From: a virus
Direction: 5' to 3' (one strand)
Length of the DNA: 25,448 nucleotides
Virus record (IMG/VR): IMGVR_UViG_3300042564_001257
Span: 1-25,448 of that record
Shown piece after piece: positions 10,495 through 14,232 of the stretch. Made by a program: the position numbers and the translations under genes. Every line of letters begins with the position of its first letter. The first letter of the stretch is position 1. The notes below the pieces were generated by a model. The model made no database searches. It was not told where the DNA came from and saw only the letters and a list, made by a program, of their open reading frames with translations.

Positions 10495-11598
10495 ATGACT
10501 GAAAAGATCACTTCACGTCACGTCGAGGCCGCTAAGGTTCTCGAAGGCGCTTTGCGCGGAGATCGCGCAGACAAGCTAAAGCTTCAGGAAGGTATCAGCA
10601 CTTCTGACCTACCTGTGCAGTTGGCTCCAACCATCAACAAGATCCTCTTGGAGAACTATGCAGTTCAGCCAAAGGTCTGGGACCGCTTCGCAACTCGTCT
10701 AGTAATGGATGACTTCCGCCCACAGCAGTTCCTGAACCTACGCTACGAGGATGAGGGTAAGGACAACGCTGGAGACACTTTCCGCGAAGGTTCACTACCT
10801 ACTGTTGGCGAATACGACGAATACCCTACCGCTGGTTGGTTCTCAGTAACTGAGGCAAGCCTTGCAGTGAAGAAGTCGGGTCAGCGCATCCGTTTCTCAT
10901 GGGAGTCAATCGTAAACGATGGAAACATCTCGCTTCTTGAGCGTCTACCTATTGAGCTTGCTCAGAAGGCTGCCGGCAAGGAAGATGAAGAAGTTACCAA
11001 GCAGCTCGTTTCAGGCTCAGGTCTAAACACCGCTAACTTCAAGTCTGCTAACGGCAACTTGCTTGCAGGTAACTTGGCTCTTACTCTTGAGAACCTTGAG
11101 AAGGCAATCCAGTTCGCTAACGAGCAGTCATACAACGGCAACTTGATCACTCCTGTGACTCGTTTCGCTCTTGTTATCCCACGCTCACTAGAGCTAACTG
11201 CTAAGAAGATCCTTGCAACCCAGACCGTTGAGACTTCAACCACTGTTGGCGGAATCGTTACCAAGACTGTAACTGGTAACCCAATCGGCACTCAGGTTGA
11301 GATCGTTGTAAACGACTGGATCACCAAGATCAATCCTCTTGCAGCATCTTACTGGTTCTTGATTCCAGTTCCTGGTCAGTCACTTAACCCTTCGGTTGCT
11401 CTTGGCTTCCTTCGCGGTTACGAGGCTCCAGAACTTCGCATCAAGGCTAACGGCGGAACCTTCCTTGGTGGAGGCGACGTTCCAGCCCGTGACGGTTCGT
11501 TCGACAACGACGACTTCGAGATGAGAATTCGTCACATCGCAACCGGTGGGTTCTTGGTTCCTGCTGGAACCGTTGCATCAACTGGTGCTGGTCTCTAA
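10495..11598 (+). CDS. major capsid protein (HK97-like)
   Basis: The 367-residue coat protein forms the icosahedral shell. Its place after scaffold and decoration genes, the abundant-gene codon use (CTA, AAC, GGC) and the strong AAGGTAAGG ribosome-binding site support this. Residues 1-55 resemble the helical N-arm; AGWFSVTEASLAVKKSGQRI (about 113-132) fits the E-loop/spine region; the C-terminal half has DNDDFEMRIRHIATGGF typical of the A-domain end. There is no obvious cleaved delta domain. A strong terminator follows. Confidence 0.88.
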   Translation: MTEKITSRHVEAAKVLEGALRGDRADKLKLQEGISTSDLPVQLAPTINKILLENYAVQPKVWDRFATRLVMDDFRPQQFLNLRYEDEGKDNAGDTFREGSLPTVGEYDEYPTAGWFSVTEASLAVKKSGQRIRFSWESIVNDGNISLLERLPIELAQKAAGKEDEEVTKQLVSGSGLNTANFKSANGNLLAGNLALTLENLEKAIQFANEQSYNGNLITPVTRFALVIPRSLELTAKKILATQTVETSTTVGGIVTKTVTGNPIGTQVEIVVNDWITKINPLAASYWFLIPVPGQSLNPSVALGFLRGYEAPELRIKANGGTFLGGGDVPARDGSFDNDDFEMRIRHIATGGFLVPAGTVASTGAGL

Positions 11599-11604
11599 AG
11601 ATCA

Positions 11605-11643
11605 AAAGAAAAGCCCCCACTTCGGTGGGGGTTTTTCTTTTCT
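11605..11643 (+). terminator. Rho-independent terminator after capsid gene
   Basis: AAAAGCCCCCAC and GTGGGGGTTTTTCTTTT form a perfect stem closed by a TTCG tetraloop and followed by a U-rich tail. It ends or reduces transcription after the most abundant protein. Confidence 0.92.
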
Positions 11644-11664: not shown

Positions 11665-11705
11665 GTGTCTAGCGCCACGCATGTAAACGCACTGCGACTA
11701 GGCAC
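11665..11705 (+). other. stem-loop preceding tRNA-like RNA
   Basis: GTGTCTAG (11665-11672) pairs with CTAGGCAC (11698-11705) with one G-U pair, extended inward by CGC/GCG around a bulged A; the loop is 18 nt. It ends one base before the acceptor stem of the tRNA-like element, so it may be a 5' leader removed by RNase P. Confidence 0.5.
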
Positions 11706-11706
11706 T

Positions 11707-11786
11707 GGGCTAGGAATGGTGTCGATTGTTGCTCAAAGCTCTCATGGAGAAGCGACAAGACCAGAGTTCGATTCTCTGCTAGTCCA
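11707..11786 (+). ncRNA. tmRNA-like tRNA-Ala-like RNA, minimal form
   Basis: The 80 nt fold like the tRNA-like domain of tmRNA. The acceptor stem GGGCTAG/CTAGTCC has seven pairs, the third being G-U (the G3-U70 alanine identity pair), and the next base is A73. The T-arm is perfect: CAGAG-TTCGATT-CTCTG (11762-11778). There is no D-stem; instead TGG-N2-TCGA (11717-11725) matches the D-loop spacing of bacterial tmRNA. One long helix follows (TTGTTGCT 11726-11733 with AGCGACAA 11751-11758, plus TCTC/GAGA) in place of an anticodon arm, like helix H2. CCA is not encoded. A tag ORF and pseudoknots have no room. Predicted substrate of AlaRS and SmpB; function unknown. A degenerate tRNA is the main alternative. 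Confidence 0.55.
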
Positions 11787-11805
11787 CGCAAGACCAAGGA
11801 GAGCC

Positions 11806-11985
11806 ATGCCAATTTATGAATACGTCTGCCCTAAAGGGCATCTGACGATCGACAAGCGATCAATCCATGATGATAACGAACCAACTAAATGTCCAGAATG
11901 TGGCGAGTCGCTAACCCAAAAGATTGGCTCTTTTGGCCTTACATTCAACGGATCTGGCTTCTACCGCACAGATAAGAACAAGTAG
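11806..11985 (+). CDS. FmdB-type zinc ribbon protein, 59 aa
   Basis: Begins MPIYEYVC and continues with PTKCPECGE (C29, C32) and FNGSGFYRTD near the end, the standard layout of FmdB-family zinc ribbons. The usual first CxxC is altered: C8 is followed by PKGH, so H12 may replace the second Cys. The start at 11806 follows AAGGAGAGCC; reading further upstream would run through the tRNA-like RNA. Phage FmdB proteins are widespread and their role is unclear; regulation or head assembly has been suggested. It sits 20 bp after the tRNA-like RNA in the same probable transcript. Confidence 0.85.
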   Translation: MPIYEYVCPKGHLTIDKRSIHDDNEPTKCPECGESLTQKIGSFGLTFNGSGFYRTDKNK

Positions 11986-12721: not shown

Positions 12722-13468
12722 ATGATCATCTTTCCAGATAACAATCTGCCTCGGCCCTCTCAGGACTGGGCAGAAACTGTTGAGCAAGAGATCAAGAAAC
12801 TTGATAGAAAAAAGGGTGGAAATGGCGCATCTGGGTCTGATGGTGTTCGAGGTCCAGAAGGCCCTCAAGGACCGCAGGGAGAACAAGGTCCAGAGGGACC
12901 AATGGGTGTTCAAGGGTTACAAGGTCCAGAAGGGCCAGAAGGACCTGAAGGCCCTAAAGGTGATATGGGCGACACCGGCCCACAAGGACCTGTCGGACCG
13001 CAAGGCGAAACTGGACCAACTGGACCGCAGGGCGAACAAGGAATACAGGGTATTCAAGGAGTTCAGGGGGCAACTGGACCGCAAGGCATACCTGGTGAAA
13101 CTGGAGCTACAGGACCTCAAGGCCCTAAAGGAGATACTGGGGCTACCGGACCTCAAGGCCCACAGGGTGAGCAAGGTGAAACTGGGGAGACTGGACCTAT
13201 GGGTCCTATGGGTCCTGCTGGCCCACAAGGCATTCAGGGTGCTAAAGGCGATAAAGGTGATCAGGGGCTAACTGGTTTATCTGCTTATCAGGTTGCACAA
13301 CTTGATGGGTTTGAGGGAACTGAAGCCGAATGGCTGGATAGCCTCGTTGGGCCTGAAGGCCCTGCTGGCCAAGATGGTCAGCCTTATGGTAACATTGATG
13401 GCGGTAAAGCAAATAGCGTTTACGGCGGTATCAGTCCACTTGTGGGCGGAAGTGCGAGTAGTTTCTAA
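12722..13468 (+). CDS. collagen-like fibre protein
   Basis: Residues 1-33 form a head ([13 protein letters not shown], then a charged helix), followed by about 150 residues of Gly-X-Y triplets (GPQ, GPE, GIQ, GAT), which form a trimeric triple helix. Then comes a conserved [20 protein letters not shown] module and a Gly-rich end with [13 protein letters not shown]. Such proteins are trimeric phage fibres that carry or extend receptor-binding parts. It lies directly before an Mtd_N-type partner (TAATG overlap) in a block between capsid and neck genes. Expression looks leaderless. Confidence 0.85.
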
Positions 13469-14232
13469 TGGCTGTGCAAATACAATTAAGGAATGACACT
13501 GCGGCTAACTGGACCGCAGCTAACCCGATCCTTGCACAAGGTGAGATGGGTATTGAAACCGATACCGATCTTTTTAAAATCGGCACGGGTCTCGACCCGT
13601 GGAACCTTCTTCCTTATGGCGGTCTTGTTGGGGCCGCTGGAGAGGGTGTGGCTTCTGGCGGAACCGCTGGACAGATCTTAGCAAAGGTCGATGGCACTGA
13701 TTACAATACAACATGGATTGATAACTTTACCGGCCAAGTAAAGCACCTTGTAAAAAACAACACTGGCGTTACCATCGCTAAGGGTTCTGTTGTTTATGTT
13801 TCATCTTCTGATGGTGCAAACATGAATGTTTCTTTGGCGGATGCAGATAGTGAAGCAACATCGTCTAAGACTATGGGTATTACTGAAGCTGCAATCTTGC
13901 AGGGCGATTTTGGTTATGTCATAACCGAGGGCTTGATTTCTGGTTTGAACACTTCTTTGGCAACCGCTGGTCAAGCGGTTTGGCTTTCATCAACTGCTGG
14001 CCAGTTTGTTTTTGGGTCACCACCTGCCAAGCCAGCGCATAGCGTATACCTCGGTGTTGTAACCCGTGTGCAAACAAACAATGGTGAGATCTTTGTGAAA
14101 GTTCAAAACGGCTATGAGCTAAACGAGCTGCATGACTTGAACGTTTCAAGTGCTGTTCAAAATGATTTTATAAAACTAAACTCATCTGGCATGTGGGTAA
14201 ACTCAAACATCATCGATGGCGGAACAGCCTAG
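13468..14232 (+). CDS. Mtd_N-type fibre protein
   Basis: The first 55 residues (QIQLRNDTAANW, PILAQGEMGIETD, KIGTG) match the N-terminal beta-prism-like domain of major tropism determinant-type phage fibres. Residues about 88-212 contain GQAVWLSSTAGQF and GEIFVKVQNG, strikingly like the decoration protein at 10140 (GAAVYVTSAG, GEVYVRL). The protein ends IIDGGTA, an ending shared with the next gene. It starts at TAATG overlapping the collagen-like gene, so the two are likely partners. Fibre or capsid-attached fibre role is inferred. Confidence 0.75.
   Translation: MAVQIQLRNDTAANWTAANPILAQGEMGIETDTDLFKIGTGLDPWNLLPYGGLVGAAGEGVASGGTAGQILAKVDGTDYNTTWIDNFTGQVKHLVKNNTGVTIAKGSVVYVSSSDGANMNVSLADADSEATSSKTMGITEAAILQGDFGYVITEGLISGLNTSLATAGQAVWLSSTAGQFVFGSPPAKPAHSVYLGVVTRVQTNNGEIFVKVQNGYELNELHDLNVSSAVQNDFIKLNSSGMWVNSNIIDGGTA

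Follow-up and report, generated by a model that had tools for sequence, protein, structure and literature searches.

The window analyzed here is a 25,448-nucleotide (nt) stretch of viral DNA (IMG/VR record IMGVR_UViG_3300042564_001257, positions 1 to 25,448). Read directly, its plus strand holds at 11707-11786 a complete tRNA-like domain (TLD) of the type found in transfer-messenger RNA (tmRNA). Comparison with homologues indicates that the fold is real and that this RNA belongs to a large phage RNA family, and its identity as a TLD-only tmRNA is, judging from sequence, close to certain. The best overall explanation, which we regard as probable, is that this TLD-only tmRNA would be charged with alanine and loaded with host SmpB, and would compete at stalled ribosomes with the tmRNA of the host. 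The parts of the RNA are as follows.

11707-11786, plus strand: TLD-only mini-tmRNA, from G1 to the discriminator base A73 (from sequence and from two family models, R1 and R2, introduced below)
11707-11713, plus strand: 5' strand of the acceptor stem, GGGCTAG, with G3 paired to U70
11717-11725, plus strand: stemless D region, TGGTGTCGA (TGG-N2-TCGA)
11726-11732, plus strand: 5' strand of helix H2, TTGTTGC, with double-sided changes at all seven pairs among homologues
11733-11751, plus strand: H2 cap, an internal loop (TCAAAG/AA) plus a short hairpin (CTC-TCATG-GAG); family consensus AARNCC..GGA
11752-11758, plus strand: 3' strand of helix H2, GCGACAA, covarying with 11726-11732
11759-11761, plus strand: GAC before the T-arm
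11762-11778, plus strand: T-arm, CAGAG-TTCGATT-CTCTG; the pairs of its 5-bp stem are 100% formed in the aligned homologues, with double-sided changes
11779-11786, plus strand: 3' strand of the acceptor stem, CTAGTCC (11779-11785), plus A73 (11786)

A sequence-only reading of the window had already described the seven-pair acceptor stem with its third pair G-U, the A at the discriminator position, the five-pair T-arm with its TTCGATT loop, the stemless D region and the GAC ahead of the T-stem, and all of these are present. The single long helix that it saw in place of an anticodon arm is there in part: beyond the 7-bp H2 come an internal loop, asymmetric in that TCAAAG faces AA, and then a short hairpin (CTCT/GGAG). 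That reading was also right about space. Only 33 nt separate TCGA from GAC, H2 counted in, so that the 80-nt RNA has no room for a tag reading frame or for pseudoknots PK1-PK4, and the mRNA-like domain of a standard tmRNA, with its resume codon and tag, is absent. The gene does not encode CCA; CGC comes right after A73. The D region of tmRNA is GGNNUCGA, with which the TGGTGTCGA of the window agrees. Energy folding by itself is unconvincing (z = -1.66, with a minimum-energy fold that differs from the TLD fold), and the case for the TLD fold thus rests on comparison.

What, then, does comparison reveal? A loop-only pattern, in which the D region, GAC and T-loop were fixed and the acceptor and A73 were left free, was run on IMG/VR and gave at least 119 stretches, among them at least 61 distinct sequences, the window copy included, with a 7-bp acceptor and a 5-bp T-stem; at many matches the unspecified parts pair perfectly. 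Since the D region belonged to the pattern, its conservation is not independent evidence. In the 61 distinct sequences among the matches listed, the first two acceptor pairs are G-C without exception, pair 3 is G-U in 61 of 61, the base after the acceptor (A73) is A in 61 of 61, and pairs 4-7 vary with compensation. The invariance of G3-U70 and A73, the alanine identity elements, is meaningful because the acceptor was unspecified in the pattern while pairs 4-7 vary. One exception, locus L115, lies outside the 61; it has six acceptor pairs and lacks the G-U. Matches to a second, stricter pattern that fixed the identity bases are excluded from this claim.

Two disjoint alignments carry the structural argument. 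R1, an alignment and covariance model of 25 members of equal linker length, has 97.2% of cells paired and a covariation of 0.789, versus 0.204 when shuffled and at most 0.139 when slid. R2, built from 18 members outside the clade of the window, has 98.2% of cells paired and a covariation of 0.756. In each of the two sets, every one of the seven H2 pairs has double-sided changes, and the homologue comparison that the earlier reading had called for thus turned up compensatory changes in acceptor, T-arm and H2 alike. R1 scores the window copy at 87.2 bits; R2, from which the window's own clade was left out, scores it at 67.4 bits (E = 3e-16), the sole match in the window at E up to 10. Most members cap H2 with a conserved internal loop plus a short hairpin; the consensus reads AARNCC..GGA and often includes a CNNG loop. 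Additionally, the Rfam tmRNA model (RF00023) is above its cut-off in 37 of 50 related viral records, where it calls the 80-nt RNA itself in an alignment that spans model positions 1-374 and skips the entire mRNA part; the model picks up the RNA in Streptomyces phages and in Pontimonas phage phiPsal1 as well. Isolates that were recovered by BLAST rather than by pattern retain the D region GG-N2-UCGA and the T-arm, with natural variants.

Other identities can be set aside. A canonical tRNA, with a D stem and an anticodon arm bearing a 7-nt loop, is ruled out: ARAGORN finds neither a tRNA nor a tmRNA in the window, no Rfam family matches the window at curated thresholds, and in a permissive search the tRNA family comes out on top at the RNA, with 23.2 bits and thus under its cut-off of 29. 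BLAST of the window RNA against isolates returned mainly T-arm matches to tRNAs and nothing full-length. The model of CDS-less (coding-sequence-less) mitochondrial tmRNA, RF02544, does not figure in the list of matches with E values of 10 or below, from which two lower-scoring matches of the same clan are omitted. A separate coding piece, which the sequence-only reading had raised, is rejected as well, whether in a two-piece or a permuted tmRNA, as above cut-off RF00023 matches nothing beyond the TLD-only RNA in the 50 records and nothing in the window. In other words, the core of that reading, a tmRNA-like TLD with alanine identity and without an mRNA domain, gains support from covariation in homologues and from the lack of a canonical cloverleaf.

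Two further loci add variety to the family. One phage contig (L114) holds two mini-tmRNA copies, at 5-81 (42.9 bits) and 1317-1392 (61.2 bits). In Vibrio phage D239 (L281:1471-1538), a TLD-like RNA of 68 nt lies between tRNAs (35.7 bits with R2); its middle is shorter and its D region aberrant, and it is perhaps a more reduced form.

The family is found in isolates as well as in metagenomic contigs. Streptomyces phages LuckySocke, BRock, GiJojo, pSt2308 and Alone3 carry the RNA inside tRNA clusters, between tRNA-Val and the next annotated tRNA, and in all five it is unannotated as RNA. Elsewhere the association is with capsid genes: 26 viral loci, with 12 distinct RNAs among them, have it ahead of homologous major capsid genes, in most cases by 101-128 nt (at L222:10395-10475 and some 25 further loci the distance to the capsid start is 100-130 nt). 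In phiPsal1, whose capsid is 61% identical to that of one RNA-bearing locus, the RNA was predicted from capsid position alone and then found, at 82.7 bits, 116 nt before the capsid gene. The position of the RNA does move, as in locus L157, a phage that shares its head-gene set with the window, it sits between terminase and portal. The strict pattern gave 7 stretches in 84,980 prokaryote species genomes, 5 of them confirmed by R1, versus at least 119 in viral contigs, which indicates that the RNA is mainly a viral feature. The five confirmed copies (L201, L203, L204, L205 and L207; Cellulosimicrobium, Nonomuraea, a Hydrogenophaga metagenome-assembled genome, Phytoactinopolyspora and Cellulomonas), some of them near tRNA genes, are probably prophages or other mobile elements.

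Around the window copy, the gene order is that of a head-gene region. The viral source record of about 25 kb has terminase, portal, protease, decoration and major capsid genes upstream of the RNA, and the nearest features are these.

10495-11598, plus strand: major capsid protein gene, upstream (Pfam Phage_capsid_4, PHROG 133/4523)
11611-11642, plus strand: terminator-like hairpin GCCCCCACTTCGGTGGGGG followed by a T-rich tail, after the capsid gene and upstream of the RNA
11666-11704, plus strand: possible leader hairpin directly 5' of the RNA (weak, z -0.8)
11796-11801, plus strand: Shine-Dalgarno sequence AAGGAG of the FmdB-like gene
11806-11985, plus strand: FmdB-like zinc-ribbon gene, 19 nt downstream of the RNA (Pfam Zn_ribbon_8, PHROG 1076)

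The terminator-like hairpin after the capsid gene occurs in relatives too. Beyond the FmdB-like gene come an NlpC/P60 protein gene and collagen-like fibre genes, among which 13468-14232 encodes a protein with a Major tropism determinant N-terminal domain (Mtd_N). The placement of the RNA at a capsid/fibre junction, as first proposed, therefore holds on the capsid side, where the major capsid gene adjoins; the other neighbor is the FmdB-type gene, with the fibre genes further on. The host is likely an actinobacterium, since the closest isolate portals, at 33-41% identity, come from Clavibacter, Stenotrophomonas and Microbacterium phages; neither CN1A, a Clavibacter phage, nor Jacko, a Microbacterium phage, carries the RNA.

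How is the RNA expressed, and which partners could it use? Of 87 upstream regions, 14 have a -10-like hexamer whose end falls 5-8 nt before G1, about threefold the number at other offsets, which is consistent with transcription starting at the RNA itself in some lineages. At L239, L095, L096 and L109 such a hexamer ends about 6-7 nt before G1, sometimes right after the terminator of the preceding gene. No such promoter was seen before the window copy, near which a consensus promoter scan gave nothing convincing. No SmpB gene was found in the 50 IMG/VR records, many of them fragments, or in 6 isolate genomes whose records are described as complete, from which it follows that the RNA would work with host SmpB or without SmpB.

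Known systems provide a frame for the function. In complex with SmpB, the TLD of tmRNA mimics tRNA-Ala: alanyl-tRNA synthetase (AlaRS) charges it, EF-Tu binds it, and it moves into the empty A site, where it takes the nascent chain (PMC8012679). A standard tmRNA (ssrA, RF00023) shares G3-U70, A73, the stemless D region, H2 and the T-arm with the phage family, most members of which RF00023 recognizes, whereas it is about 360 nt long and the family RNA is about 80 nt, without resume codon, tag frame or pseudoknots and with H2 closed by the AARNCC..GGA hairpin. The tmRNAs of Gordonia phage GMA2, Ruegeria phage RpAliso, Synechococcus phage S-CAM1, Caulobacter phage CcrSC and Pseudomonas phage SM1 are also phage-borne and have the same TLD, but these full-length or permuted RNAs keep the mRNA part, as their Rfam matches show, and are a separate form. 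(The tRNA cluster of GMA2 also contains a Pistol ribozyme match, L212:3344-3400, 56.8 bits.) The sequence-only reading had named jakobid mitochondria as the home of tmRNAs without an mRNA domain; these RNAs do exist there, and also in oomycete mitochondria, in two Mallomonadaceae plastids and in mycobacteriophage DS6A (PMC4131195, PMC11915505). The organellar CDS-less RNAs likewise keep the TLD and lack a tag frame (PMC11915505), but they are not viral, and the mitochondrial forms (RF02544) are mostly permuted. The window RNA fits the definition of the DS6A type in that it has little beyond the TLD, is phage-borne and is tag-less (PMC4131195). DS6A itself (tmRNA Website tmID 11587; Phage__Mycobacterium.9) is a singleton phage case, likened to the window RNA by description only, and was the sole precedent that a literature search for TLD-only tmRNA in phages found. 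A 2025 tmRNA database that includes RefSeq viruses holds 9 standard-form CDS-less sequences in total (PMC11915505).

We propose the following mechanism, which is drawn from these parallels and which we hold at roughly even odds as far as a charged, tag-less competitor that overrides host trans-translation is concerned. In the RNA itself, the small conserved hairpin that closes H2 stands where a standard tmRNA has its whole mRNA and pseudoknot domain. Host tRNA enzymes would trim the 5' and 3' ends and add CCA, host AlaRS would charge the RNA, and host SmpB and EF-Tu would bind the charged form, which could then compete with host tmRNA for entry into the empty A site when ribosomes stall. The nascent chain would pass to the alanine of the RNA and, with no resume codon on offer, would stay without an ssrA tag. 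In the late, capsid-making phase, the net effect would be that host trans-translation is overridden, by tag-less rescue or by blocked tagging, such that unfinished phage proteins are spared and ribosome turnover is changed.

Several observations weigh against this proposal. RF00023 leaves the window copy unmatched and recognizes homologues only; the tmRNA search proposed by the sequence-only reading thus had a mixed outcome, with 37 of 50 homologous records above the cut-off and no match in the window, where the tie to tmRNA runs through R1 and R2. The H2 cap could be matched to no known motif and has no assigned partner. The RNA is present in none of 80 phages with similar capsid proteins, the nearest by capsid included, within the flanks searched; it is therefore either dispensable or a recent gain, and genomic context alone found no homologues. 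Lastly, a DS6A-type TLD-only RNA inhibits endogenous tmRNA in E. coli, reportedly whether chargeable or not (PMC4131195, PMC11915505). As that inhibition was independent of charging, the invariant G3-U70 suggests that more than SmpB titration is at work.

The strongest rival, which we rate as a serious if unlikely possibility, is that the RNA performs a beneficial tag-less rescue, freeing ribosomes in infected cells during mRNA degradation while host tmRNA remains unblocked. The conserved chargeability implied by the identity elements fits this idea, and so does the CDS-less mitochondrial tmRNA that co-occurs with SmpB and has been proposed to act in just this way (PMC11915505); however, the known TLD-only RNA is inhibitory in E. 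coli, and without a resume codon the route of ribosome recycling is unexplained. Slightly less likely still is a pure decoy that titrates host SmpB, or AlaRS, and does not act on the ribosome. Here the inhibition by a similar molecule, charged or not (PMC4131195), would be expected, as would the lack of a phage-encoded SmpB, but an RNA for which charging did not matter should let G3-U70 drift to G-C or A-U, and this pair is constant in 61 of 61 homologues while its neighbors vary. Because G3-U70 is so strictly kept, charging would seem to matter to the phage, which favors action on the ribosome over plain SmpB titration.

It is improbable that the fold is mere processing punctuation, an RNase P/RNase Z cutting site that parts the upstream transcript from capsid or downstream mRNA and releases a roleless RNA. 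The frequent location in capsid-gene leaders, the adjoining FmdB gene in the window and the co-transcription with tRNAs elsewhere would suit such a role; any tRNA fold would suffice for it, though, leaving the invariant G3-U70 and A73 and the conserved H2 cap unexplained, and in the copies that have a -10-like element 6-8 nt before G1 the transcript probably begins at the RNA, making a 5' cut needless. An alanyl donor for a non-ribosomal reaction, or an odd tRNA-Ala, has the alanine identity elements in its favor and is very unlikely given that an anticodon arm is missing, ARAGORN finds no canonical tRNA, and the tmRNA-type D region and H2 are kept. Integration at ssrA genes is known among phages (PMC9004378), but a decayed host tmRNA fragment captured at an att site is scarcely credible, as many lineages have the two TLD halves together, covarying and with H2 closed, ruling out an integration scar, and the copies sit in head-gene or tRNA clusters.

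The kind of RNA described here was thus known from one phage in the literature found, and what is new relative to that literature is the breadth of the family, its covariation, the invariant alanine identity, the conserved H2 cap and the capsid linkage. Surveys of phage tmRNAs lean on ARAGORN, which misses or miscalls the TLD-only form. In the window it reports nothing, and its calls with tag peptides at L139:5905-6228 and L084:2976-3318 are rejected here, the 5' half being misplaced and the true 5' half lying inside the 80-nt RNA. Published phage tmRNA lists based on ARAGORN may contain such false tags, and a 2022 survey that counted phage tmRNAs with this program (PMC9004378) would not reliably see the TLD-only form.

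What had been a curiosity of DS6A becomes a large family of phage RNAs, strict in its alanine identity and linked time and again to the capsid gene. Tentatively, we extend our proposal to the idea that several phage lineages use alanine-charged, tag-less tmRNAs of about 80 nt against host trans-translation in capsid production, with the capped H2 binding a factor foreign to ordinary tmRNA. The findings suggest that interference with the cellular rescue of stuck ribosomes, or a takeover of it, is common among viruses. A covariance model of the family would annotate the RNA in existing genomes, and the carriers among isolates, which have laboratory hosts, make phage blocking or replacement of ribosome rescue directly testable. 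If there is indeed a dedicated class of tag-less tmRNAs across phage lineages, it would represent a widespread viral anti-quality-control RNA.
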